Source: Gemmatimonadota bacterium (GTDB taxonomy: Bacteria; Gemmatimonadota; Gemmatimonadetes; Longimicrobiales; Gaopeijiaceae). From it: DNA of 38,151 nt. The notes under the pieces are model-generated. The model was not told the origin of the DNA. It was given only the letters and a program-made list of their open reading frames with translations, and ran no database searches. Shown piece by piece: positions 4,586 to 17,413 of the stretch. Position 1 is the stretch's first letter. Every line of letters starts with the position of its first letter. The stretch is from contig JAJDVT010000058.1 in NCBI GenBank assembly GCA_022826005.1, positions 70,605 to 108,755 of the forward strand. Reading direction: 5' to 3'. The translations under genes were made by a program, and so were the position numbers.

Positions 4586-5575
4586 ATGAACCGAGACATC
4601 GAAGTCATACAGGCGAGGATCAAGGAAACGAGCGGTTTCGTCGACCGTCTGCTCGAAGAGGTGGGCGGCGTGATCGTGGGCCAGAAGGCGATGGTCGAGC
4701 AACTGCTGGTGGGGCTGCTTTCGGACGGGCACGTCCTCATGGAAGGGGTGCCGGGGCTGGCCAAGACGCTCACCGTGCGGACGCTGGCCGACGCGATCCG
4801 GACCTCGTTCCAGCGCATCCAGTTCACCCCCGATCTGCTCCCGGCCGACCTGATCGGGACGCTGATCTACGATCCCCGCAAATCCGAATTCAAGACCCGG
4901 AGGGGGCCGGTCTTCGCGAACGTGATCCTGGCCGACGAGATCAACCGTTCGCCGGCGAAGGTGCAGTCGGCGCTGCTCGAAGCCATGCAGGAGCGCACGG
5001 TGACGATCGGCGAGGACACCTACCCGCTGCCGTCCCCGTTCCTCGTGCTCGCGACCCAGAATCCGATCGACCAGGAGGGGACCTACCCGCTCCCCGAGGC
5101 GCAGGTGGACCGCTTCATGCTCAAGCTCTCGGTGGGGTATCCGAACCGGGACGAGGAGCTGGAGATCATGCGGCGGATGAGCTCGGGGCCGACGCCGGCC
5201 GCCGAGCCGGTGGTCACGCCTGAGGAGATTCTTACGGCGCGCGAGGCGGTCGAGACGATCTATATGGACAGCCAGGTGGAGCGGTACATCGTGGACCTGG
5301 TCTTCGCCACCCGCGAGCCGGCGGAAAGCGGCCTCGCCGAGCTCGATCCGCTGATCTCGTTCGGGGCCTCGCCGCGGGCGTCGATCTACCTGGCGAAGAC
5401 TTCGCGGGCGCACGCGTTCCTGCGGCACCGCGGCTACGTGACGCCCGAGGATGTGCGCTCGGTTGCAATGGACGTGCTCAGGCACAGGGTCATCCTCACG
5501 TATGAGGCGGAGGCGGAGGAGGTGACGGCGGAGGACGTGGTGACCCGGGTGCTGGACACGGTCGAGGTGCCGTAG
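4586..5575 (+). CDS. MoxR-family AAA+ ATPase
   Basis: The 329-residue cytoplasmic ATPase shows Walker A GVPGLAKT (54-61), Walker B VILADEINR (113-121), sensor-1 LATQNP (155-160) and EAQVDRF (171-177) with the likely arginine finger, all diagnostic of MoxR ATPases. The family acts as a chaperone-like partner for VWA-domain proteins, which fits the BatA and BatB genes downstream. An in-frame ATG lies 90 nt upstream, but MNRDIEVIQ at 4586 matches the usual family N-terminus and has AAGGTGG before it. It is the first gene of the Bat operon; AGGAGG at its stop codon serves the next gene. Confidence 0.95.
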   Translation: MNRDIEVIQARIKETSGFVDRLLEEVGGVIVGQKAMVEQLLVGLLSDGHVLMEGVPGLAKTLTVRTLADAIRTSFQRIQFTPDLLPADLIGTLIYDPRKSEFKTRRGPVFANVILADEINRSPAKVQSALLEAMQERTVTIGEDTYPLPSPFLVLATQNPIDQEGTYPLPEAQVDRFMLKLSVGYPNRDEELEIMRRMSSGPTPAAEPVVTPEEILTAREAVETIYMDSQVERYIVDLVFATREPAESGLAELDPLISFGASPRASIYLAKTSRAHAFLRHRGYVTPEDVRSVAMDVLRHRVILTYEAEAEEVTAEDVVTRVLDTVEVP

Positions 5576-5585
5576 GAGGTTGGCG

Positions 5586-6584
5586 GTGAAGTTGCGGCCA
5601 GGCATCGGACGGGGCCAGGGGGCGCGCGGGGTAGCCGCCGGTGCAGCCGGCGCGCGTGGTGCTGCGACGGCGGGCGGGCGCGTCACGGACGGCAAAGGGG
5701 CTGTGGCGATTACCCGCGAGATCCTCAAGCAGGTACGCCGGATCGAGATCACGACGCGCGGCCTGGTGAACGAGGTCTTCTCGGGCGAGTACCACTCCGT
5801 CTTCAAGGGGCGGGGGATGAGCTTCGCCGAGGTGCGGGAGTACCAGTACGGGGACGACATCCGCGGGATCGACTGGAACGTGACCGCCCGCACCGGTTCG
5901 CCGCATGTGAAGGTTTTCGAGGAGGAGCGCGAGCTCACCCTGATGCTGGTGGTGGATGTGAGCGCGTCGTCGGAGTTCGGGACGCGGGGCCGGACGAAGG
6001 CTGAGTTGGCGGCTGAGTTGTGCGGGGTGATCGCCTTCAGCGCCATCAAGAACAACGACAAGGTGGGACTGATTCTCTTTTCCGACCGGATCGAGCGCTT
6101 CGTGCCGCCGCGGAAGGGACGCCGGCATGCGTTGCGCGTGCTGCGCGAACTGCTCTTTCATCCGGCCGAGGGGAAGGGGACCGACATCGGTGGCGCGCTG
6201 GAGTACCTGGCGCGGGTGGCCAAGCGCCGCGCGGTGGTCTTTCTGGTGTCGGACTTTCTGGCCGGGGGCTACGAGCAGGCGCTGTCGGTGGCGGCGCGCA
6301 GGCACGATCTGGTGGCGGTCAGGGTGGGCGACCGGCGCGAGCAGGAGATCCCGCCGATCGGATTCGTCGAGTTCGAGGACCCGGAGACCGGGCAGCGCGT
6401 GCTGGTGAACACGTCGCGGGGGCTGTTCCAGGAGCGCTTCGGGGAACACCGGGCCGACGTACGCCGCCGGGTGGACCGGCTGCTGCGCCGCAGCAAGGTG
6501 GATTCGATCGACGTTACCACCGGGGTGCCGTACGACAAGGCGCTCCGGCGCTTCTTCGAGGAACGGGGACGGCGGGTGCGATGA
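5586..6584 (+). CDS. DUF58 domain protein (VWA-like), Bat operon
   Basis: The product has 332 residues. The DUF58 hallmark runs from GEYHSVFKGRGMSF through EVREYQYGDD to IDWNVTARTG (residues 67-104). It is followed by a VWA-like strand and metal-site motif VVDVSASSE (122-130). DUF58 proteins are regularly encoded between moxR and VWA genes and probably act in the same complex; the precise role is unknown. The GTG at 5586 is chosen because AGGAGG (5574-5579) sits 6 nt upstream; a TTG at 5580 is too close. The first 40 residues are Gly/Ala-rich and unlike the family core, so a later GTG (5703) is possible. The stop overlaps the next start (ATGA). Confidence 0.9.
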   Translation: MKLRPGIGRGQGARGVAAGAAGARGAATAGGRVTDGKGAVAITREILKQVRRIEITTRGLVNEVFSGEYHSVFKGRGMSFAEVREYQYGDDIRGIDWNVTARTGSPHVKVFEEERELTLMLVVDVSASSEFGTRGRTKAELAAELCGVIAFSAIKNNDKVGLILFSDRIERFVPPRKGRRHALRVLRELLFHPAEGKGTDIGGALEYLARVAKRRAVVFLVSDFLAGGYEQALSVAARRHDLVAVRVGDRREQEIPPIGFVEFEDPETGQRVLVNTSRGLFQERFGEHRADVRRRVDRLLRRSKVDSIDVTTGVPYDKALRRFFEERGRRVR

Positions 6585-7693
6585 TGGAGGGGACCGCACG
6601 ACGCCTGCTGGCGGGAACCGCGAGTGCGCGGCGCTTGGCGAGGGGCTTGCTGTCCCTGGGCGTCGTGGTGGCGCTGCAAGGCGCGGGTCCCGCCCCCCAG
6701 GAACCCCGCGTCACGATGCAGGTGGACACGACGCTCATCAACGTTGGCGACCCGATCATTGTGCGGCTCGTGGTGGACCACCCGGCAGACTGGACGGTCC
6801 AGTGGGCGGACTCGCTCGACCTCTCGCCGTTCGAGGTGCTGCACTACGAGGCCGCCGAGGCCACGCCCGCGCCTTCGGGCGAAGGGATGCGCTCCGCGGC
6901 CTCCCTTGTCATTACCAGCTTCGAACTGGGCGAGCTCGAGATCCGGCCGATCGAGGTGGCCGTCACCGCCCCCGACGGCAACGTCTGGACGCTGCTCACC
7001 GATCCGTTCCGCATCGGCGTGGAGAGCGTCGGGCTCGACGAGTCCGGGGAGATTCGCGACATCAAGGGACCGCTTTCGCTGCCTCGCAGCTGGTGGGGGC
7101 TGTTGCCGTGGCTGCTCCTCGCGGCCGCTCTGGCGGGCGGCGGCTACTACCTGCACCGCCGCATGCGGAACCGTCCGGTGACCGCGGCGGCCAAGCCCGC
7201 ACCCCCGCCCCGTCCCTTCCACGTAGTCGCCCTCGAGCAGCTGGACGAACTGGAGACATCGTCGCTGCTGGAGCGCGGCCAGGTGAAGGCCTACCACATC
7301 CGCATCTCCGAGATCATTCGCGCGTATGTCGAGGGCCAGCTCGAGGTGCCCGCCCTCGAGATGACCACCCGGGAGGTCGTGCGCGGCCTGCGCCGGGCGT
7401 CGCTGAGCGGAGCGATCACCGGGAGCTTCCGGAGCTTCCTCGCCCGCTGCGACCTGGTGAAGTTCGCGAAACTGCGACCTGGAGCGGACGAGTCCGGGGA
7501 ACTGATGGGGGTAGCCCGTTCGCTGGTGGCGATGACGAGCGGGGTAGAGAGCGGGAGGAATGGGCGGACGGATGAATCCGCGACGGCCGCGGGATCGGCC
7601 GAGGGCGGAGAGCCGCAGGCGGGGCAGCCGCAGTCGGCAGAGTGGGAGGAGCCGGAGACGCCAGCCGGCCGCGTGGAGGCTCGCGTCCAATGA
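6581..7693 (+). CDS. Membrane protein with BatD-like N-domain and DUF4381-like C-domain
   Basis: The 370-residue protein has a signal-like N-terminus (about 19-40), a periplasmic beta-domain beginning VTMQVDTTLINVGDPI (45-60), one transmembrane helix (about 171-191, WWGLLPWLLLAAALAGGGYY) and a cytoplasmic helical tail (about 205-315) with ALEQLDEL, EIIRAYVE and RCDLVKFAKLRP, resembling DUF4381. Such proteins usually sit between DUF58 and batA. The start is coupled to the DUF58 stop by ATGA at 6581, and a second ATG follows at once. The last 50 residues are Glu/Gly/Gln-rich and low-complexity. The open frame extends far upstream in the DUF58 gene, but that part is an off-frame shadow. Function is inferred only from operon context. 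Confidence 0.8.
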   Translation: MMEGTARRLLAGTASARRLARGLLSLGVVVALQGAGPAPQEPRVTMQVDTTLINVGDPIIVRLVVDHPADWTVQWADSLDLSPFEVLHYEAAEATPAPSGEGMRSAASLVITSFELGELEIRPIEVAVTAPDGNVWTLLTDPFRIGVESVGLDESGEIRDIKGPLSLPRSWWGLLPWLLLAAALAGGGYYLHRRMRNRPVTAAAKPAPPPRPFHVVALEQLDELETSSLLERGQVKAYHIRISEIIRAYVEGQLEVPALEMTTREVVRGLRRASLSGAITGSFRSFLARCDLVKFAKLRPGADESGELMGVARSLVAMTSGVESGRNGRTDESATAAGSAEGGEPQAGQPQSAEWEEPETPAGRVEARVQ

Positions 7694-8682
7694 TCTTCCG
7701 GTTCGAGGATCCGTGGATGCTGCTCCTGCTCGGGTTCGTCCCGGTGCTGGCGTGGTGGTACCTGAAGGGGACGCGGCGGCGGCGGGGGTCGCTCACGCAT
7801 CCGGATGCCGAGGGGCTGGCTCACGCCGCCGGAAGCGGAGGCCGGTGGCTGAGCCACCTGCCGGCAGCGCTGAGGGGGCTTGCGCTGGTGTGTCTCATCT
7901 TCGCATTCGCGCGCCCGCAGACGGGCGTCACCGGCGAGAACGTGGTCGCCGAGGGAATTGACATCGTGCTGGCGCTGGACATCTCCAGCTCGATGCTGGC
8001 GGAAGACCTGACGCCCAACCGCATCGAGGCGTCCAAGGAGGTGGCCGCCGACTTCATCGAAGGGCGCACCAACGATCGCATCGGCCTGGTGATTTTCGCG
8101 GGTCGGGCCTTCACGCAGGCTCCGCTGACGCTGGACTATTCCGTCGTCACTTCTCTGATCGCCGAACTCGAGGTGGGAATCATCGAGGACGGCACCGCGG
8201 TCGGAATGGGGCTGGCCACGGCGGTCAAGCGGCTGCAGGCGAGCGAGGCCGCGTCAAAGGTGGTGATTCTCCTGACCGACGGGCGCAACAACCGGGGTGA
8301 GATCGATCCGGTTACCGCGGCGCAGGCAGCCCAGGCGCTGGGGGTTCGCGTCTATGCCATAGGCGCGGGGGCGCGCGGCACGGCGAGGGTTCCCCTACTC
8401 GTCCCGTTCGGGGGACACCGGTATGTCACGACGCGGGTCGATGTGGGCGAGCCGGTTCTGCGCGAGGTCGCGGAGACCACCGGAGGGCGCTACTACCGTG
8501 CCACCGACCGAGAGAGCCTGGAGGCCATCTACGATGAGATCGACGAGCTGGAGACCACCGAGATCCTGGTCGAGGACTTCACCACCTACGGGGAGCGCTT
8601 CCCGCTGCCGCTGGCCGCGGGACTGCTCTTGCTGCTGGGCGAGGTGGTGCTGGGGCGCACTTGGCTGAGGACCCTGCCGTAA
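7690..8682 (+). CDS. batA: BatA-like VWA-domain membrane protein
   Basis: The product has 330 residues. N-terminal helices MLLLLGFVPVLAWWYL (10-25) and LALVCLIFAFARP (64-76) precede a von Willebrand A domain with the MIDAS motif DISSS (97-101), DGTAVGMGLATAV carrying the conserved Thr (167-179), and TDGRNN (196-201). A C-terminal helix is about 311-330. This is the standard BatA architecture: a cytoplasmic-membrane protein with the VWA domain between transmembrane segments. The ATG at 7690 overlaps the previous stop by 4 nt (ATGA) and has GGAGG about 10 nt upstream; an earlier in-frame ATG at 7642 would delete this coupling. A 62-nt AT-rich gap separates it from batB. Confidence 0.92.
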   Translation: MIFRFEDPWMLLLLGFVPVLAWWYLKGTRRRRGSLTHPDAEGLAHAAGSGGRWLSHLPAALRGLALVCLIFAFARPQTGVTGENVVAEGIDIVLALDISSSMLAEDLTPNRIEASKEVAADFIEGRTNDRIGLVIFAGRAFTQAPLTLDYSVVTSLIAELEVGIIEDGTAVGMGLATAVKRLQASEAASKVVILLTDGRNNRGEIDPVTAAQAAQALGVRVYAIGAGARGTARVPLLVPFGGHRYVTTRVDVGEPVLREVAETTGGRYYRATDRESLEAIYDEIDELETTEILVEDFTTYGERFPLPLAAGLLLLLGEVVLGRTWLRTLP

Positions 8683-8744: not shown

Positions 8745-9881
8745 GTGTTCCGCTTCGGTTCCGGCGTCGCGCTCTGGGCCCTCGCCCTGGTCCCGCTGCT
8801 CGTCCTCCTCTACTGGCAGGCGGACAAGCGCGGCCGGGCGCTCCTCGACCGCTTCGGCGAACACGAGCTGGTGCGTCGGCTCCGCGCCTCCGTCGATGCC
8901 ACCGCCATGCGCTGGAAGGGGGTGCTGGTGCTGGCGGCGGTGGCGCTGCTGGCGGTGGCGCTGGCCCGGCCCCAGTTCGGCACCCGCGTGGAGACGCTCC
9001 GCCGCCAGGGGCAGGACGTGATGGTCGCGCTTGACGTGTCGCGCTCGATGTACGCGGAGGACATCACGCCCAACCGGCTGGAGCGCGCCCGCATCGAGAT
9101 CGGCCGCATCATCCAGCGCCTCGAAGGAGACCGGATCGGGCTGGTCGCCTTCGCGGGGGACGCGTTCGTGCAGAGCCCGCTCACCGGAGACTACGGCGCG
9201 GCGATGATGTTCCTCAACGCGATGGACCCCGACCTCATGTCCGTGCAGGGGACCGACCTGGCGCGCGCCATCACGGTGTCGATCGAGGCGCTGGAGGAGA
9301 CACCGCCCGAGAACCGGATCGTGGTGATCGTCACCGACGGGGAGGACCATGAGGGCGGGCTGGCCGAGGCGATCGCGGCGGCGACCGCGGCGGAGGTCAC
9401 TGTCCACACGGTGGGCGTCGGGTCGCCGGACGGCGTCCCGCTCCCCGACGTGGACGGGAGCGGGGGGGGCGGCCGCTTCCGCCGCGACGACGAGGGCAAT
9501 GTGATCACCACGCGCCTGAACGAGACGGCGCTGCAGGACATCGCCCTGCAGACGGGCGGCGAGTACCACCGGATCGGCCAGGGCGCGGGCGGGCTCGGGC
9601 GGCTGGTCGAACGGATCACCGGGGGCGGTCGGGAGTTGGAATCCAGGGAGATCACCCAGTTCGAGGAGCAGTACCAGCTCTTTCTCGGTGCGGCATTGCT
9701 CCTGCTGGTCGCGGAGTTCATCATACCAGGGAGGCGCAGGCGGCCGCGCGACGCGGATGGACGCGGGCAGGGGCGCGATGCCGGCGGGCGCAGGCCGGCC
9801 CACGATGCCGGCGGGCGCGGGCCGGCCCACCACGCTGGCGGACGCGGGCGCCCCGCTGCAGTTCCGGAGGTTGATTCATGA
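8745..9881 (+). CDS. batB: BatB-like VWA-domain membrane protein
   Basis: The 378-residue protein opens with a transmembrane helix (SGVALWALALVPLLVLLYW), then a second at about 61-75. Its VWA domain carries MIDAS DVSRS (VALDVSRSMYAED), GTDLARAI and VTDGEDHEGG. A third helix (QLFLGAALLLLVAEFIIP) follows. The paralogous match to BatA (AEDLTPNR / AEDITPNR) is clear. The GTG start is chosen from frame and homology; GAGG lies about 9 nt upstream. After the last helix is an odd 45-residue tail made of a 9-residue repeat (DAGGRRPAH type) from a 27-nt tandem DNA repeat. Its stop overlaps batC by ATGA. Confidence 0.92.
   Translation: MFRFGSGVALWALALVPLLVLLYWQADKRGRALLDRFGEHELVRRLRASVDATAMRWKGVLVLAAVALLAVALARPQFGTRVETLRRQGQDVMVALDVSRSMYAEDITPNRLERARIEIGRIIQRLEGDRIGLVAFAGDAFVQSPLTGDYGAAMMFLNAMDPDLMSVQGTDLARAITVSIEALEETPPENRIVVIVTDGEDHEGGLAEAIAAATAAEVTVHTVGVGSPDGVPLPDVDGSGGGGRFRRDDEGNVITTRLNETALQDIALQTGGEYHRIGQGAGGLGRLVERITGGGRELESREITQFEEQYQLFLGAALLLLVAEFIIPGRRRRPRDADGRGQGRDAGGRRPAHDAGGRGPAHHAGGRGRPAAVPEVDS
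9776..9856 (+). repeat. 27-bp tandem repeat at the 3' end of batB
   Basis: Units at 9776-9802 and 9803-9829 differ at one visible position (GCAGG against GCGGG), and 9830-9856 is a degraded third unit. They encode DAGGRRPAH, DAGGRGPAH and HAGGRGRPA. Because 27 is a multiple of three, changes in copy number keep the frame. Confidence 0.85.
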
Positions 9882-10801
9882 GGATTTGTTCCTGGCGTTG
9901 GGCGGGTGGTCGGGTCATGGCTGTGTTTGGCGTGGCCGTGGGGCGGGGCGCGGCCGCGTGGGCACGGTGCGTTGCCGTGCTGTCGATCGTCACAGCCGGG
10001 TGGCTGCGCTATGCCGCGGTCGTCGCTCCGGTCGCCGCCATCTTGGTGATCGCCGGACCGCTCCGCGCGCAGGAGGGCCGCCGCGAGGTCGAGGAGGGGA
10101 ACCGCCTCTACGAGGAGGGGCGCTACCAGGAGGCCCACGCCCGCTACCTGGAGGCGCTGGCGAAGGTGCCGGGGCTCTCGCTGGCCCGCTTCAACGAGGG
10201 GAACGCGCTCTATCAGAGCCAGGAGTTCCAGCGCGCCATGGAGGCCTACCTGGAGGCGGCCGAGAGCGGCGACCCCGGGTGGCAGTCCCGCGCGTGGTAC
10301 AACCTGGGCAACGCGCTCATGAGGCAGCAGCAGCCGGGGGCGGCGGTGGAAGCGTACAAGCAGTCGCTGCGCCGCGATCCGGGTGACCGGGACGCAAAGC
10401 ACAACCTGGAGCTGGCGCTCCGGATGCTGGAGGAGCAGGAGCAGCAGGAGGGGGAGGACGGGCAGGAGGGCCAGGACGGGGAACAAGGGGAGCAGGGCGG
10501 GCAGCAGGATCAGCAGGGCGAGGGGGAGCAGGGTGAGGAAGGTGATGAGGGCGAGCAGGGTGGCCAGCAGGGGCAGCAGGGTGAGCAGGGGGACGACCAG
10601 GGGCAGGGATCGCAGCCGGGTGGGGGGGATGCGCAACAGTCCCCGGACGAGGGCGAGCAGGAGGGCCAGCAAGGTCAGCCGCCCCCGCAGATGACCCCCG
10701 AGCAGGCCGAGCGCCTCCTGCAGGCGATCACGGAGGATCCCGGTGAAGTGAACCGGAGGGCGGCTCAGGCGCGCGGAAGCCAGCCGAGGAAGGACTGGTA
10801 G
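9878..10801 (+). CDS. batC: BatC-like TPR protein with acidic Gln/Gly/Glu-rich region
   Basis: The 307-residue protein has a long N-terminal hydrophobic/signal region ending near LRAQ (about 62-65). TPR motifs follow from about 68 to 180 (EGNRLYEEGRYQEA, FNEGNALYQSQEFQRA, YNLGNALMRQQQPGAA). Next is about 80 residues almost wholly of Glu, Gln, Gly and Asp, then a terminal helix (MTPEQAERLLQAI...KDW) typical of BatC. ATG at 9878 overlaps the batB stop and has GGAGG 8 nt before it; a second ATG 13 codons later is possible. It is likely a periplasmic or membrane-tethered scaffold of the Bat complex. The repetitive tract is prone to length variation. Confidence 0.9.
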   Translation: MRICSWRWAGGRVMAVFGVAVGRGAAAWARCVAVLSIVTAGWLRYAAVVAPVAAILVIAGPLRAQEGRREVEEGNRLYEEGRYQEAHARYLEALAKVPGLSLARFNEGNALYQSQEFQRAMEAYLEAAESGDPGWQSRAWYNLGNALMRQQQPGAAVEAYKQSLRRDPGDRDAKHNLELALRMLEEQEQQEGEDGQEGQDGEQGEQGGQQDQQGEGEQGEEGDEGEQGGQQGQQGEQGDDQGQGSQPGGGDAQQSPDEGEQEGQQGQPPPQMTPEQAERLLQAITEDPGEVNRRAAQARGSQPRKDW

Positions 10802-10802
10802 G

Positions 10803-12728
10803 ATGGTTGGGATGAGAATGCTCAGGTGGGCGAAGGGCCGGCGGGGCGGGCCGGCGGGTATGATGGCGGCGATGGCCATGGCGGCCGCAGCAACGGTGCC
10901 GGTGACCGCGTCGACGGCGGACCGGCTTTCGGCCCAGGAGCCGGCCGTGCGGGCCTATCTGGAGTCGGAAGAGGTGTCAGTGGGTGATGTGTTCCGGGTG
11001 ATCGTCGAGGTCTCCGGGGTCATGGAGGTGGAGAACATCATCGTGCCCCCGATCTTCGGGTTCTCCGGTCGGCCCGAGGACCGCGCGCTGCCCTTCGCTA
11101 CCGAGATCACCAACCCCGAAGCGGGAGAGCAGGGCGGAGTGGTGGTGATCACCTATTCGTATGTGGCGGCAGGCGCCGGATCGGTCGAGGTCGGCCCCGT
11201 TCTGGTCACGGCAGACGGCCGGAATCTGGAGACCGGACTGCTGACGCTGCAGGTGAGACAGCCCTCCGACGTGTCGGTTCGGGCGCATATCGAGCCCGCC
11301 GAGGTCCGACTATTGGGGCAGTTCGAGATACACGTGGAGGTCGATGGGGTGGACGCCCTTCTGGAACGCCCGGTTCTGCCGGACTTGTCGCAGTTCGCAA
11401 CGGAGCATGGTGGCGGGGGGGGGCGCGGGTCGGTCAGGTTCAGTTTCATAGCCATGGAGCGCGGCACTCACGAAATCGGCCGGATTTCAGTGAAGGTTGG
11501 AGACCGCGTCTATGAGAGCGAGCCGTTGACGCTGGTGGTCAACGACGAGCCGCCGCGCGTCGTGGCCAACGCCGCATTCAACACGGCCGAAGCGTGGGTA
11601 GGAGGCGACTTCCTCCTGGCCGTCGTGGTGGAGGGGGTTCGCGAGCTGGAGGAGGACCCGGTGTTGCCCGACCTGTCCGGCCTGGCGGATCTCGTACGCG
11701 CGACAGGGGGCGGGACATCCTTTGGTGCATCCGCCGGAATCTCAAGATTTGCGGTCCATCACCGCTACCAATTCCGCGCGCTGGCACCCGGCAGGTTCGA
11801 ACTCGGACCCATTCGAATCAGGGCCGCGGGCCAAACGGTTCTTACGGAACCGGTCAGCTTGACCATAGGCGAAGCGCCGCCGGACCCGGTTCGCTCCCCT
11901 GAGGATCTCCGAGTCACCACTGAAGCCGACAAGCGACGTGTCTACGTCGGAGAACCGGTAATCGTCTCCTATAGGGTCCTTTCCCGGGGCTCATTCGGCG
12001 GCGACGGCTGGACGGTCCAGAGCGACACCCTCCGGGTACCGTCGCAGGCAGGCCTCCGTAGCCAGGCGCTAGGAGCGTCGTTCAGCGGGCCGGAGCAAGT
12101 CTGGATTGACGGTCGTCGGTATCGGGGCGGTTATGCGCGTCGGGTCGCTTTCTTTCCAACGCAAGTCGGCCAGATGAGCATCGACCCTGTTGAAATCGGT
12201 GTCCAGATTAATCGGCGGCGCTGGCCCCGTGCCAGGGTGTTTGACCCAGCCGAGAGCCGGGCAAGGAATCAAGGAGACTGGGTTCCCATGACTCTCACCA
12301 CCGAGCCCGTTGCCATCGAAGTCGTGCCGCTCCCCGACGAAGGCCGTCCGGGCTCCTTTCGGGGGCGCGTGGGAAGGCTCGGGGTGGTCTCGTGGGTGGA
12401 TCGGACGGACCTGGCCGTAGGGGACACGGTTGCGCTTCAAGTGGAGCTCTCCGGGGATGGCCACAGCCGGGCGCTGCCGGAGCTGGAGATCGCTTTCCCC
12501 GACGGATTCGAAGTCCTGGAACCGGCGGTCACGCATTCGAATCCCCGTGACGAAGGCGGCGGCATGCGTGGCAGCATCACCCGTTACTACCGCTTGATCG
12601 CGCGCGCGGCGGGCGGCTACCGGATCCCCGCGATCGAGCTTTCCTACTTCGATCCCGAGAGCGGGTCGTATGGAACCACCCGCGGCGGGTCCTTCGACTT
12701 GACCGTTGGCCCCGGCGTGAAGGAGTGA
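10803..12728 (+). CDS. BatD-like secreted protein 1, without membrane anchor
   Basis: The 641-residue product has a signal region (MMAAMAMAAAATVPVTA, ending near SAQ) followed by about four Ig-like/BatD beta-domains beginning VRAYLESEEVSVGDVFRVIVEVSG. Repeated features are YESEPLTLVVND, FELGPIRI and RVYVGEPVIVSYRV. The end, IPAIELSYFDPESGSYGTTR, matches the last beta-domain of the third BatD, but no transmembrane helix or cytoplasmic tail follows. It is therefore predicted to be free in the periplasm. The start lies 1 nt after the batC stop; an ATG three codons on is an alternative. Its end overlaps the Shine-Dalgarno of the next gene. Confidence 0.85.
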   Translation: MVGMRMLRWAKGRRGGPAGMMAAMAMAAAATVPVTASTADRLSAQEPAVRAYLESEEVSVGDVFRVIVEVSGVMEVENIIVPPIFGFSGRPEDRALPFATEITNPEAGEQGGVVVITYSYVAAGAGSVEVGPVLVTADGRNLETGLLTLQVRQPSDVSVRAHIEPAEVRLLGQFEIHVEVDGVDALLERPVLPDLSQFATEHGGGGGRGSVRFSFIAMERGTHEIGRISVKVGDRVYESEPLTLVVNDEPPRVVANAAFNTAEAWVGGDFLLAVVVEGVRELEEDPVLPDLSGLADLVRATGGGTSFGASAGISRFAVHHRYQFRALAPGRFELGPIRIRAAGQTVLTEPVSLTIGEAPPDPVRSPEDLRVTTEADKRRVYVGEPVIVSYRVLSRGSFGGDGWTVQSDTLRVPSQAGLRSQALGASFSGPEQVWIDGRRYRGGYARRVAFFPTQVGQMSIDPVEIGVQINRRRWPRARVFDPAESRARNQGDWVPMTLTTEPVAIEVVPLPDEGRPGSFRGRVGRLGVVSWVDRTDLAVGDTVALQVELSGDGHSRALPELEIAFPDGFEVLEPAVTHSNPRDEGGGMRGSITRYYRLIARAAGGYRIPAIELSYFDPESGSYGTTRGGSFDLTVGPGVKE

Positions 12729-12733
12729 CGAAA

Positions 12734-14608
12734 ATGGAGAATACCGGACCAGCGAGAATCCGGAGATTCCAGGGGACATCGGGCCGGCTGGGGGGCATCC
12801 TCCTGGTGGCCCTGCTGTCGGCGGGATTGGTCCCGTCACCGGCCGCCCACGGACAGGATCCGTCGGCCCATGTCCGCCTGGAGCCGCACGATGTGGTGAT
12901 AGGCGAGGAGTTCCGCCTTGTCGTGGAGGTAAGGGGGGCAAGCAGGGTCGAACGGGTGGTCATCCCGGAGCTCTTCGACTTCGCCTACTGTATCAACCCG
13001 TACGATCCGGCCGTGGAGGTGAAGGTCGGTGATGCGGAGTCCGGCGCCGCCGCGAACTCGGTCTCCCTGTCCTATGTGTTCGTTCCCACGCGTGTCGGGT
13101 TTTTCGAGATGAGACCGTTCAGGATCACGGCGGACGGCCGAAGTCTGGAGACGGACGCCATCGCGGTCAGGGTAAGCGGCGGCACGGATCCGGTCGTAAC
13201 GGCGCGAGTCGAGCCACCCGAGGTGAATGTGGGGGACGAGTTCGAGTTGACCGTCGAAGTCCTGGGTTCGGAGTCGTTGTCCCTCGAATTCGTAGCACCA
13301 GATGTGTTCGACTTTGCCGAGTCCGGTGGAGGGGGTGGATCGGAGTCCCGCCGGACGTGGAGAATGCGCGCGCTGGAGCCGGGCGAGTGGGTCATCCCGC
13401 CGGTGCGGGTATTGGATCAGGACCGAAGCTACGAGAGTGAACCGGTTGCCATCGTGATCACCGACGAGCCGATCGAAATCGGGGCTGAAGCCACCGTGCA
13501 ATCCGAAGCGATCTGGGTCGGCAGCGAGTTCACGCTCAGGCTCGAAGTCACGGGCGTCCACGAGTTGGACGAAGACCCCACGATCCCGGAAACGGATGGC
13601 TTCGCGGAGCTGCTGGAGGCGGATGGGCCAGGGCGCTTCATCGTGAACACCGAAAAAAGGATATCGTACACCTACCGGTTCCGGGCCGCTCAGGCGGGCA
13701 GTTTCGAGATCGGTCGCATGCGGATTCTGGCCGATGGCCGGGAATACGAGTCCGAACCCGTGAGCCTTGTCATTGACCAGGTGCCGACCGGTGAGGCGGA
13801 TCCCCCGGAGGGCCTGGTGCTCGTCGGCTCCCTGAGCAAGACCCGCGCCTATATTGGCGAACCCGTTGTTGTCGAGTATTCGGTTCAAAAGCTGGGCGCA
13901 TGGCCATCGATCGGCAGTTTGCCACGAATCGGGACGAAGGCCTGGCCCTCGTTTGGCGGCTTCGAGGTGTTGAATCTGGCTGGCTGGCGCGTGGAAGACT
14001 TGCAAGACCCCTCTTTACCATCTCCTGGCCGTTCAATGGTGGTCGTGCCTCGGGAAGTGGGCACGATCGATATCGGCGCTGCGACAATCGAGTACAGAAT
14101 AGAGGATTGGCGGGACTCCTGGGACAGAGCGCCACCGGATGAGCCCTCACGGGTATCCACTTCCTACATCCTGACCTCGGAGCCTCTATCGCTGGAGGCG
14201 GTGCCTCTGCCCGTGGAAGGCCGTCCCGGGTCCTTTCGGGGGCATGTGGGGACCCTGGCGGTGGCATCGCGGGTGGACCGGACCCGCGCTGAGGTGGGGG
14301 AGACGGTCACGTTCCGGGTCAAGGTGTCGGCGGTGGGGAATGTGGATGCGCTTCCCGCTCCCGAAATCGACTTCCCGAGCGGATTCGCGGTCTCCGAACC
14401 GGAGATCGTCACCGTGTTGCCGGACCGCTACGTCACACCGCGCGGGGACCGTGAGTACATCTACCGGCTCACGGCCATCAGTCCCGGGACCTACCGGATC
14501 CCCGCCGTCGAGATGTCGTTTTTCGACGCCGAGACCGAGTCCTACGGGACGGCGCGCGGCCACCCCTTCACGATCACGGTGGTGCCGGCGGGGAGGGAGG
14601 GGCGGTAG
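12734..14608 (+). CDS. BatD-like secreted protein 2, without membrane anchor
   Basis: The 624-residue precursor has a signal peptide (GGILLVALLSAGLVPSPAAHG) and then BatD-type beta-domains: VRLEPHDVVIGEEFRLVVEV, VEPPEVNVGDEFELTVEV, SEAIWVGSEFTLRLEVTG and KTRAYIGEPVVVEYSV. The end, IPAVEMSFFDAETESYGTARG, is again that of a BatD beta-domain without an anchor. The ATG at 12734 is preferred over a GTG at 12725 because AAGGAG (12720-12725) is 8 nt before the ATG and touches the GTG. It is similar in domain order to the preceding gene (for example EGRPGSFRG before the last domain), which supports tandem duplication. Confidence 0.85.
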   Translation: MENTGPARIRRFQGTSGRLGGILLVALLSAGLVPSPAAHGQDPSAHVRLEPHDVVIGEEFRLVVEVRGASRVERVVIPELFDFAYCINPYDPAVEVKVGDAESGAAANSVSLSYVFVPTRVGFFEMRPFRITADGRSLETDAIAVRVSGGTDPVVTARVEPPEVNVGDEFELTVEVLGSESLSLEFVAPDVFDFAESGGGGGSESRRTWRMRALEPGEWVIPPVRVLDQDRSYESEPVAIVITDEPIEIGAEATVQSEAIWVGSEFTLRLEVTGVHELDEDPTIPETDGFAELLEADGPGRFIVNTEKRISYTYRFRAAQAGSFEIGRMRILADGREYESEPVSLVIDQVPTGEADPPEGLVLVGSLSKTRAYIGEPVVVEYSVQKLGAWPSIGSLPRIGTKAWPSFGGFEVLNLAGWRVEDLQDPSLPSPGRSMVVVPREVGTIDIGAATIEYRIEDWRDSWDRAPPDEPSRVSTSYILTSEPLSLEAVPLPVEGRPGSFRGHVGTLAVASRVDRTRAEVGETVTFRVKVSAVGNVDALPAPEIDFPSGFAVSEPEIVTVLPDRYVTPRGDREYIYRLTAISPGTYRIPAVEMSFFDAETESYGTARGHPFTITVVPAGREGR

Positions 14609-14693
14609 GGGGTTGTGGATGGGCGAAGTGGGGTGCCGACCGTGGCGAGGGTGTCGACCGGGCAAGTCGAAGACGCTGAAACGTATAGTATAC

Positions 14694-16634
14694 ATGACAT
14701 TTTGTAACGTTTACTTTACAGGATGGTCCCGCGCGCGAAGCGGGGCCGTCGGCGCGGGCGGCGGGATCCGCACCGGTCGGGCGCGGACGCATTGCGGCTT
14801 GAGTGGTGGCGGGGGTCTCGTCTGCGCGCTGCTGGGGGCGGTCCTCGGGCTTGGCGCGCCGCCGGGCGCGGTACAGGCGCAGGAGATTGCCGTCCGCGCC
14901 TTTCTGGGCGCGCCGCAGGTCGGGGTGGGGCGGCAGTTCGTGCTGAACGTGGAGGTCACGGGGGCGCAGCAGGTGGACCGGGAGCCCACCCTTCCCGACA
15001 TGGAGAACTTCGCGAGCTTCCTCGGGTCGAGCACCTCCAGCTCGTTCCAGATGGCGGGCGGGCGCACCACCGTGTCGGTCACCTACCAGTACCGCTTTCA
15101 GGCGCTGGCCGAGGGGACGTTCGAGATCGGGCCGGTGTCGGTGACGGTCGGGGGCGAAATGTTGCGGACGGAGCCGGTCACGCTGACGGTCTCCGACGCG
15201 CCGCCGCCGGGTGGCGGGAACGCGGAGGCCGATCCTGCTGCGGGGGTCGCGCCGGAGGATCTCCTGCTGGAGGCATCGGTCTCGAAGACCCGCGCCTACG
15301 AGAACGAGCCGGTGACCGTCGAGTACGAGATCTTCACGCGCGTCGACGTGGACCGCTACACCATCACATCGCTGCCCCAGGCGACCGGCTTCTGGACCGA
15401 GGTGCTGGAACAGCCGGAGTCGCCCCAGGTGGAGCGGGTGGTGAGGGACGGTGCCGAATACCTGCGCGCATCCATCCGGCGTGTGGCGCTCTTCCCCACC
15501 GGCGCGGGCACCCGCACCCTGGATCCGATGAGCATCGAGGCCCAGGTGCGCGTTCCGGACCAGCGCGCCCTGGATCCGTTCGGCGGCCGCCTCGGCGGCA
15601 TCTTCGGCGGCCCGAGCCTCTTCGACCGCCGGATGCCCGTGGTCGTCGCCTCGCAGCCCGTCACGATCGAGGTGCTGCCCACGCCGGCCGAGGGGCGCCC
15701 GGATTCGTTTTCGGGACATGTGGGGACGCTCCGCGTCTCGGCCTCGGCGGACAGGACGGAGGTGCAGACGAACGATGCGGTCACGTTCAGCGTCGACTTG
15801 CGCGGCACCGGGAATCTCCGCGTGCTGACGCCCCCCGAGATAGCCTTCCCGGTCGAGTTCGAGACCTTCCCGCCGGAGACACGCGACGAGATTGGCGCGG
15901 GTGGCGGGAGCCTCCAGGGGACGCGCGGCTACGACTACGTGCTGATCCCGCGCGCGCCCGGCCGGGTGACGATTCCGCCGGTGGAGATGTCGTATTTTGA
16001 CCCCGCAAACACCCGGTACGTGACCGTTCGCACGGAGCCCGTGGAGATCACGGTGACCGGCGACGGGGCGGGGGCCGACCTTCCCGGTGCGGTCCCGTCC
16101 GCGGTGGAATCGATCCGCGACGAGATCCGCTTCATCCACATCGATGCGCCCCGGTTCACGCGCAGGGACGTGCCGCTGTACGTGACCGCCGGCTTCTGGG
16201 TGGTGCTGCTCCTTCCCGTGGCGGCGCTGGGGGGCGCGGTCGCGGTGCGCCGGCACCGGGACCGGATCGAGGGGGACGTGGCGTACGCGCGGGTGCGCAG
16301 GGCGGGCCGGATGGCCAGAAAGCGGCTCGCGCGGGCGAGGTCGCTGGCGACGGGCGAGCCGCAGGCCTTCTACGCGGAGGTGGCGGGCGCGCTGGAGGGA
16401 CTGCTGGCCGACAGGCTGAACGTGGCCGAAGCCGGGCTGGTGCGCGAGGAGGCGGGGCGACTGGCGGCCGCGCGCGGGGTCTCCCGCGAGACGCTGGAGC
16501 GGCTGTTCGCGTGCCTCGACGACTGTGACCGGCAGCGGTTCGCGCCCCAGGGAGCCGAACGCGAGGCGCCGGAGAAGGTGCTGGAGCGTGCGGCCGGGCT
16601 GATGAACGACCTTTTGAAGGAGTTGGCGAAGTGA
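14694..16634 (+). CDS. batD: BatD-like protein 3, membrane anchored
   Basis: This is the canonical BatD of the three (646 residues from ATG 14694). A signal region ends near GAVQAQ. Ig-like domains start IAVRAFLGAPQVGVGRQFVLNVEVTGA and include KTRAYENEPVTVEYEIFTRV. The last beta-domain (IPPVEMSYFDPANTRYVTV) is followed by a transmembrane helix (FWVVLLLPVAALGGAVAV) and a basic cytoplasmic tail of about 125 residues. The start is uncertain. ATG 14694 lies inside the AT-rich TGTAA-N8-TTACA element and lacks a ribosome-binding site. ATG 14619, with a G-rich tract before it, would give a long N-terminal extension; a TTG nearer the signal core is also possible. Confidence 0.88.
   Translation: MTFCNVYFTGWSRARSGAVGAGGGIRTGRARTHCGLSGGGGLVCALLGAVLGLGAPPGAVQAQEIAVRAFLGAPQVGVGRQFVLNVEVTGAQQVDREPTLPDMENFASFLGSSTSSSFQMAGGRTTVSVTYQYRFQALAEGTFEIGPVSVTVGGEMLRTEPVTLTVSDAPPPGGGNAEADPAAGVAPEDLLLEASVSKTRAYENEPVTVEYEIFTRVDVDRYTITSLPQATGFWTEVLEQPESPQVERVVRDGAEYLRASIRRVALFPTGAGTRTLDPMSIEAQVRVPDQRALDPFGGRLGGIFGGPSLFDRRMPVVVASQPVTIEVLPTPAEGRPDSFSGHVGTLRVSASADRTEVQTNDAVTFSVDLRGTGNLRVLTPPEIAFPVEFETFPPETRDEIGAGGGSLQGTRGYDYVLIPRAPGRVTIPPVEMSYFDPANTRYVTVRTEPVEITVTGDGAGADLPGAVPSAVESIRDEIRFIHIDAPRFTRRDVPLYVTAGFWVVLLLPVAALGGAVAVRRHRDRIEGDVAYARVRRAGRMARKRLARARSLATGEPQAFYAEVAGALEGLLADRLNVAEAGLVREEAGRLAAARGVSRETLERLFACLDDCDRQRFAPQGAEREAPEKVLERAAGLMNDLLKELAK
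14703..14720 (+). promoter_or_regulatory. Inverted-repeat element TGTAA-N8-TTACA at the third batD
   Basis: TGTAACGTTTACTTTACA has the same arms and spacing as the element before batB. The 29 nt from 14692 to 14720 match 8697-8725 at 23 positions, and the flank GTATAGTATAC just upstream is also AT-rich. It sits in or just before the start of the anchored batD. A regulatory role is inferred from its recurrence and position. Confidence 0.5.
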
Positions 16635-17413
16635 CGGGGGGCAGGCTGGCAGTTCACGTCTTCGCGGCGGGGTTCATCGCGCTCGCGGCCGCACCGGCCC
16701 CCTCCGGGCTCGCGGCCCAGCAGCCGCTCTTCGACGAGGGCAACCGACTCTACCAGGAGGGCGACTTCGCCGGGGCCGGCGCCAGCTACGAGGCGGTCCT
16801 GGACGGCGGCTTCGAATCCGCGGAGGTCTACTACAATCTTGGCAACGCGCACGTCCGGCTGGGCCAGCTCGCGGAGGCCGTCCTCAACTACGAACGGGCC
16901 GCGCGCCTCGACCCGGCGAACGACGACATCCGGGCCAACCTCGCGCTGGTCAATCAGCGGCTGGTGGACCGGATCGAACCCATGCCGCGCTTCTGGCTGC
17001 TGTCGGCCTTCGACTGGTGGATGGGACTTATCCCGGGCGGAGTGCTCACGGGGCTGGCGGCGGCGGGCTATCTGCTGCTTGGCTCGGCCCTGGTGATGAT
17101 CGTGCTGCGGCGCCCGGCGGGCTGGCGCAGGGTTTTCGTCGGCACCGCGTACGTCGCCGGGGTGGCTACGGCGGTGCTCGGCGCGACGCTGATGGTGCGG
17201 GAGACCGGCCTGGCCGAGCCCGAGGAGGCGGTGGTGATGGCCGTAGAGGCGAGGGTGCTCAGTGCGCCGTCGGAGGAGGGGGGGCTGACCGTCTTCACCC
17301 TCCACGAAGGGACGAAGGTGCGGGTCGACCGCCGGGCGGGGGAGTGGGTCGAGATCGTGCTGGCCGACGGGAAGGTCGGGTGGCTCCCGGCGGAGGTGCT
17401 GGAGGTCGTGTAG
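16631..17413 (+). CDS. batE: BatE-like TPR and SH3-domain membrane protein
   Basis: The 260-residue protein has a signal peptide (HVFAAGFIALAAAPAPSGLAAQ) and TPR motifs (EGNRLYQEGDFAGAGASYEAVL, YYNLGNAHVRLGQLAEAVLNYERAARLDPAN). Two transmembrane helices follow (about 139-160 and 166-190). The C-terminal SH3-like domain includes VFTLHEGTKVRVDRRAGEWVEI and KVGWLPAEVLEVV. This is the BatE layout. The GTG at 16631 overlaps the batD stop (GTGA) with AAGGAG 8 nt upstream. It is the last gene of the operon; the next gene converges on it 19 nt away, and no classic U-tailed terminator is visible between them. Confidence 0.9.
   Translation: MTGGRLAVHVFAAGFIALAAAPAPSGLAAQQPLFDEGNRLYQEGDFAGAGASYEAVLDGGFESAEVYYNLGNAHVRLGQLAEAVLNYERAARLDPANDDIRANLALVNQRLVDRIEPMPRFWLLSAFDWWMGLIPGGVLTGLAAAGYLLLGSALVMIVLRRPAGWRRVFVGTAYVAGVATAVLGATLMVRETGLAEPEEAVVMAVEARVLSAPSEEGGLTVFTLHEGTKVRVDRRAGEWVEIVLADGKVGWLPAEVLEVV

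Follow-up and report, generated by a model that had tools for sequence, protein, structure and literature searches.

A paired cassette of anchorless BatD genes in the Bat operon of one Gemmatimonadota genus

The 38,151-nucleotide stretch of Gemmatimonadota DNA analysed here (the window; contig JAJDVT010000058.1 of assembly GCA_022826005.1) contains a complete Bat (Bacteroides aerotolerance) operon, a common, stress-related type of locus that was discovered as an aerotolerance locus. All its genes lie on the + strand, from the start of MoxR at 4586 to the end of BatE at 17413. An original prediction, made from the sequence alone, had noticed three consecutive BatD-like genes in this operon, here termed D1, D2 and D3, of which only the third would be membrane-anchored. 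We find that D1 and D2 represent two subfamilies, alpha and beta, which form a fixed pair, a feature that the prediction had missed. This paired, exchangeable, anchorless BatD cassette is what is new here, as a variant of the known Bat operon theme.

Two anchorless BatD paralogues precede the anchored BatD

In a six-frame search, PF13584 (BatD) matched D1 four times, D2 four times and D3 twice, two of the four D1 domains scoring under the curated cut-off. Whole-protein E-values were 1e-31, 1e-40 and 2e-37 for D1, D2 and D3, respectively, and no matches beyond D1-D3 were reported from the remainder of the genome. The three BatD-type genes are thus where the prediction had placed them. Its second claim, that the anchor is confined to the third copy, is borne out by hydrophobicity profiles of all three proteins (19-residue window) and by AlphaFold2 models of D1 and D3. 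D1 and D2 start with hydrophobic segments peaking at 1.52 and 1.85, consistent with putative signal peptides for export, and past these the profile never peaks above 1.5; no lipobox was seen in either protein. In D3, the profile reaches 2.24 at residue 495 (frame counted from 14709), near 16191. In the D1 model (mean pLDDT 81.7, pTM 0.55, from 23 sequences), beta-sandwich domains are strung together; the one helix is short (438-444), and a membrane helix is absent. In D3, residues 437-465 are modelled as a helix, after which comes a helical domain. A C-terminal membrane helix with a cytoplasmic domain is thus a property of D3, absent from D1, D2 and the other anchorless copies. The motifs quoted in the prediction as the ends of D1 and D2 are present and trailed by just 14-15 residues (GGSFDLTVGPGVKE; HPFTITVVPAGREGR), indicating that both proteins end with their last immunoglobulin (Ig)-like domain, as had been claimed.

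We then compared the proteins domain by domain. The first Ig domain of D3 is nearest to Ig3 of alpha and beta (mean 62-63 bits, versus 35-46 to their Ig1/Ig2), and the last, IgC, is nearest to the IgC of alpha and beta (69-71 bits). Alpha and beta can therefore be described as BatD ectodomains with two further N-terminal Ig1-type domains, cut before the membrane helix. They share with BatD the PF13584 Ig-like domains, the putative signal peptide, the position between BatC and BatE, the central region and the last Ig domain. They differ from it in the two extra N-terminal domains, in lacking the membrane helix and the cytoplasmic helical domain, and in occurring as pairs beside a normal BatD. 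The first alpha of genome G007 (L016, oriented 10134-11906) has three domains and no Ig2, indicating that the number of Ig modules can change.

A Foldseek search with the D1 model returned PrgB, FdeC and receptor ectodomains, with TM-scores of 0.12-0.16 among the 13 matches of E up to 0.001; these say no more than that Ig-like domains are strung together in the model. A profile search for a solved BatD relative found none, its two matches having E-values above 0.04 and being judged chance. A rival reading is that alpha and beta are secreted surface proteins or adhesins directed at a host, neighbours or phage, sharing an operon with Bat and never docking on it. The best fold matches, at very low TM-scores, are Ig-like strings like those of PrgB, FdeC and invasin-type adhesins, and the signal-like N-terminus, the lack of anchor and lipobox, and the probable life of the genus in sponges would also suit such proteins. 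However, no signal for outer-membrane export was recognised by eye (no predictor was run), gene order and gene overlap tie alpha and beta to BatC and BatD, and both retain the BatD central region and IgC. We consider this explanation unlikely.

The cassette recurs in the genus as an alpha-beta pair

Bat operons were mapped in 23 genomes of the genus, a group of uncultured marine bacteria, including that of the window. The cassette is present in seven (G000, G003, G007, G008, G012, G021 and G022), absent from 15 and undecidable in one, G018. Since the LeuRS gene, which lies beside the operon in relatives, is missing from G018 too, this locus was treated as an assembly gap and not counted as empty. 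In all seven carriers, the cassette sits between BatC and the anchored BatD, with alpha preceding beta and the two alternating. G000, G021 and G022 have one pair; G003 and G008 have two, the end of BatC lying just upstream of the first alpha in G008. G007 has at least three pairs over two contigs, its third being read across two contigs without sequence overlap and with adjacency assumed, and G012 has at least one, at which its contig ends. In the mapped operons of the 23 genomes, neither alpha nor beta was ever seen singly. Recurrence in six other genomes of the genus, among them the single-contig genome G021, argues that the arrangement is more than chance.

An additional pair was found on a 3.3 kb contig of G019 (C377, L028), although the Bat operon of G019 itself has none. 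The BatC end on this contig is 92.7% identical to that of G005 and 81.1% identical to that of G019's own operon; the contig is therefore probably foreign. It was excluded from the counts and from the Mantel test below and kept as a row of the tree.

Alpha and beta diverge in step and under constraint

The anchorless proteins (23 in the alignment; 24 in the tree, together with four D3 proteins) fall into two subfamilies, alpha and beta, with bootstrap values of 27 for the alpha clade, 100 for the beta clade and 99 for both versus D3. A plain triplication of BatD was also considered and is ruled out, as D1 and D2 form a clade apart from D3 (99), in two subfamilies.

Across 11 pairs, alpha and beta distances are strongly correlated (Mantel r 0.91, p 1e-4, 10,000 permutations), while the correlation with the species tree is merely 0.25 and 0.35. 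That tree was built on LeuRS, which lies close to the Bat operon, and RpoB, which in G000 is on another contig; two genomes lacked RpoB and one lacked LeuRS. The alpha and beta trees thus mirror each other and hardly the species tree, likely because several old pair types exist. Type I occurs in two branches (G000 and G008; G003 and G007), type II in G008 and G022, and type III in G003, G012 and G021, with two pairs of G007 assigned to it less firmly. Pairs residing in one genome are deeply diverged from each other. Differential loss from an ancestral set of pairs is enough to explain this distribution, and horizontal transfer is not needed.

In the comparisons made, alpha and beta have a ratio of nonsynonymous to synonymous substitution rates (dN/dS) of 0.27-0.39, versus 0.20-0.26 in D3 and 0.07-0.08 in MoxR (own script after Nei and Gojobori; alpha/beta comparisons G000-G008, G012-G021 and G003-G021). 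Alpha and beta are thus constrained, faster-evolving genes under purifying selection, and anchorless copies are conserved across species of the genus. This conservation in the main refutes the idea that D1 and D2 are BatD genes truncated by a frameshift, a stop codon or an assembly error. The data do come from metagenome-assembled genomes (MAGs), and G009 has a one-domain remnant. However, 22 of the 23 aligned copies end at most 22 residues past the last Ig domain and the other at most 33, with no hydrophobic segment; the overlap of D1 and D2 leaves no space for a lost anchor; and neither the dN/dS values nor the presence of the cassette in the single contig of G021 fits decay or misassembly. 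We therefore regard an artefact as very improbable.

Within the pairs, we found no excess identity that would point to gene conversion between alpha and beta. The domain-by-domain comparison found no hypervariable recognition domain. Nearest neighbours of individual domains hint at mosaicism through domain swapping between pairs (e.g. alpha Ig1 versus Ig2 in G003p2/G007p3), with nothing firm.

The cassette is old and has been lost repeatedly

Close relative G020 provides a natural deletion. Its sequence follows the window through positions 10772-10862, where BatC ends and alpha starts, and resumes at 14668-14936, upstream of D3 and on into it; the 3,805 bp in between are missing. In seven of the 15 empty loci (G001, G002, G009, G013, G015, G016 and G019), the 3' end of beta is kept just before D3. 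Local scores of these remnants are 52-170, a range that neither 180 shuffled loci (maximum 44) nor 27 outgroup loci (maximum 43) reach; the weaker scars are short, at 12-14 residues (G002, G013 and G015). A stricter test for these beta remnants, demanding the exact stop position, detected two of 15 (G001 and G019). With G020, clear deletion scars are present in eight of the 15 operons without a pair. G005 retains 12 bp of alpha alone, and no scar was found in the six empty loci of G004, G006, G010, G011, G014 and G017. Scarred and empty genomes are scattered among the carriers on the species tree, and by our count at least five independent losses are needed if the ancestor carried the cassette. 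Together, the scars, one of them exact to the base, indicate an old cassette that has been lost repeatedly.

The D3 gene of G020 (L029) is 96% identical to that of the window, with a dS (synonymous divergence) of 0.08, well under the 0.15-0.48 of the remaining operon, pointing to recent recombination across the deletion allele.

Such turnover could also reflect redundancy, i.e. a birth-and-death process in which tandem duplication of the BatD ectodomain raises the amount of soluble BatD without new specificity, losses being neutral. Pair numbers ranging from none to at least three among close relatives, with none in 15 of the 23 genomes, and the faster evolution of alpha and beta relative to D3 agree with this. 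Yet co-resident pairs are always deeply diverged and never recent copies, neither gene is ever seen alone, purifying selection acts on both alike, and the two extra Ig domains are retained (a single alpha, in G007, having lost one). On balance, we find redundancy a doubtful explanation, though one that deserves to be kept in mind.

The original prediction had suggested interchangeable Ig-like modules. Several diverged types are indeed gained and lost as units; the unit of exchange is the alpha-beta pair and not the single gene.

No carrier was found outside the genus

The prediction had looked to several genera for conserved anchorless copies, but these proved confined to one: no carrier was found outside the genus among 37 mapped operons and 1,046 counted genomes from four phyla. 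All 37 operons, which comprise 17 of the 20 loci of one set and all 20 of a second, have a single BatD, with a full tail in 36 and cut by a contig end in the other (L044). PF13584 matches were counted in 59 relatives (own genome included), in 295 genomes from the phylum, this genus contributing 22, and in three further phyla (392, 297 and 84 genomes), with a single Pfam model that can miss diverged domains. Cassette carriers have 7-24 matches per genome, and G019 has nine through its probably foreign contig; all eight genomes with seven or more belong to this genus. Outside it, the maximum is four in the phylum and four, six and five in the three other phyla (392, 297 and 84 genomes, respectively). 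The highest of these counts, six in G793 and five in G937, G1013, G1063 and G1074, come from genomes outside the mapped-operon set; in G793 and G937, the listed matches are split over two contigs. A scan of contigs with the anchorless alignment, using just two peptide patterns, likewise found no carrier outside the genus, 11 of its 34 loci being from this genus (L129 to L138 and L140). A literature search over titles and abstract openings found no description of tandem anchorless BatD genes.

Two other arrangements were noted during these searches. In a Verrucomicrobiales MAG (L157, 8914-10774), a one-domain BatD-like open reading frame overlaps that of BatD, as a frameshift or a second copy. 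In a related family of the order (L040-L043 and L045-L048), the BatD tail measures ~390-450 residues, and BatE was not matched as a gene of its own; this protein is probably a BatD-BatE fusion.

Layout of the operon

Feature coordinates are given in Table 1. The gene set, MoxR, DUF58, BatA, BatB, BatC, BatD and BatE in this order, with a BatA N-terminal domain in both VWA proteins, matches the definition of a Bat operon, and relatives share the order. The BatC stop and D1 start are 1 bp apart, D1 and D2 overlap by 4 bp (GTGA) and D3 and BatE by 4 bp, while a gap containing a palindrome separates D2 from D3. The D3 start is probably the TTG listed in the table; the frame is open from 14175, and the G008 counterpart of the ATG at window position 14694 opens a frame that soon reaches a stop.

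Table 1 Features of the Bat operon in window coordinates
Feature	Position	Strand	Evidence or remark
MoxR-type AAA+ ATPase (AAA_3 + AAA_lid_2)	4586..5575	+	Pfam PF07726, E 4.5e-65
DUF58 protein, start uncertain	5580..6584	+	PF01882, E 3e-80
TMx, between DUF58 and BatA	6581..7693	+	No Pfam match; position kept in other operons
BatA, VWA protein (start 7642 GTG or 7690 ATG)	7690..8682	+	PF00092, PF07584
BatB, VWA protein	8745..9881	+	PF13519, PF07584
BatC, TPR protein	9878..10801	+	TPR families
D1 (alpha): putative signal peptide, Ig1-Ig2-Ig3, central region, IgC; no anchor, no lipobox	10803..12728	+	
alpha Ig1	10962..11255	+	PF13584 match
alpha Ig2	11289..11540	+	PF13584 match
alpha Ig3	11580..11867	+	PF13584 match
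alpha IgC	12396..12683	+	PF13584 match
D2 (beta): layout of D1, second subfamily	12725..14608	+	
beta Ig1	12878..13174	+	PF13584 match
beta Ig2	13202..13456	+	PF13584 match
beta Ig3	13490..13768	+	PF13584 match
beta IgC	14270..14581	+	PF13584 match
Stretch absent from close relative G020 (natural cassette deletion)	10863..14667		Base-exact
Palindrome GTAACGTTTACTTTAC between beta and D3	14704..14719		One of 14 genome sites of GTAANGTNNACNTTAC
D3, anchored BatD, TTG start proposed	14799..16634	+	
D3 membrane helix, residues 437-465 of model starting at 14880	16188..16274	+	Hydrophobicity, AlphaFold2
BatE, TPR + SH3-like	16631..17413	+	Pfam

TMx matches the NCBIfam LB_053 family weakly (E 0.0068, far under the cut-off). 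Among the core operon genes compared it has the highest dN (nonsynonymous divergence), with a dN/dS of 0.24-0.37. The GTAANGTNNACNTTAC palindrome has 14 sites in the genome, compared with none for a reversed-pattern control, and its sites often adjoin a ACATGACAT box; it looks like the operator of some regulator. Three sites (L167, L169 and L179) have a longer identical stretch in common, so some may be repeat copies.

Discussion

More than one BatD-domain gene per Bat operon is not in itself unprecedented. The expectation of a single BatD, held in the original prediction, is too simple: the Bacteroides fragilis operon has two BatD-domain genes, bf2420 and bf2416 (PMC5700661). The numbering places bf2420 away from bf2416, across the BatA genes, and we take it as the equivalent of TMx, which from its position is probably the counterpart of this second BatD-domain gene. 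Alpha and beta are additional genes, in tandem. The nearest functional analogy is the bifidobacterial PFNA operon, in which a MoxR-type ATPase and a DUF58 protein accompany an FN3-domain protein reported to bind tumour necrosis factor alpha (PMC8430577). Here, too, MoxR and DUF58 genes are joined in an operon by one for an exported protein that is Ig-like in fold and varies between species; it differs in its FN3 domains and single fn3 gene, and the likeness is one of analogy only.

Gene pairing and gene exchange are well supported by the data above. The strict association of the two genes, the mirroring of their trees and their joint loss suggest that alpha and beta work together, and the coexistence of diverged pair types suggests different partners. 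We propose that the two genes form a cassette of soluble, exported BatD-ectodomain paralogues, placed between BatC and the anchored BatD, whose products would act as an obligate periplasmic pair of five-domain Ig-like rods. A membrane-associated complex of Bat proteins has been proposed (PMC3557215). The pair may dock on such a platform (the VWA domains of BatA and BatB, and anchored BatD) through its BatD-derived central region and last Ig domain, and docking is the most economical reading, given that the BatD core is retained in both proteins and that their genes are coupled to BatC. The docked pair would then present its two additional N-terminal Ig domains, and pair types would be exchangeable specificities served by one fixed machine. 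This would explain why pairs multiply, coexist solely as diverged types and are lost whole. The periplasmic assembly or recognition surface of the original prediction would find a place here. Physical pairing, docking on the Bat complex and ligand recognition are what we infer from the genes, and we judge the chances to be about even that an obligate soluble pair docks on a fixed Bat machine and that the pair types act as exchangeable specificities.

Several points weigh against this proposal. Firstly, mirrored trees are also expected if the pair is a mere duplication unit without physical contact. Secondly, divergence is spread across all domains, with no single recognition domain in focus. 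Thirdly, 15 of the 23 genomes do without the cassette, which is therefore not needed for core Bat function. Finally, the alpha clade is weakly supported, at a bootstrap of just 27, and records of the cassette are limited to MAGs of a single genus.

More tentatively still, the Bat machine might be a constant MoxR-VWA platform for loading or displaying a variable Ig-like receptor of two chains. Alpha-beta heterodimers with several co-resident specificities would form this receptor, in a bacterial cassette system whose recognition modules are swapped or deleted pairwise. In this genus, the exported Ig-like component has been doubled to give a soluble pair, multiplied and deleted while the rest stayed fixed, which identifies the exchangeable part of the machine. 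Operons that carry the cassette can be set beside matched ones that lack it, among them that of close relative G020 with its exact deletion, and a simple binding test becomes possible.

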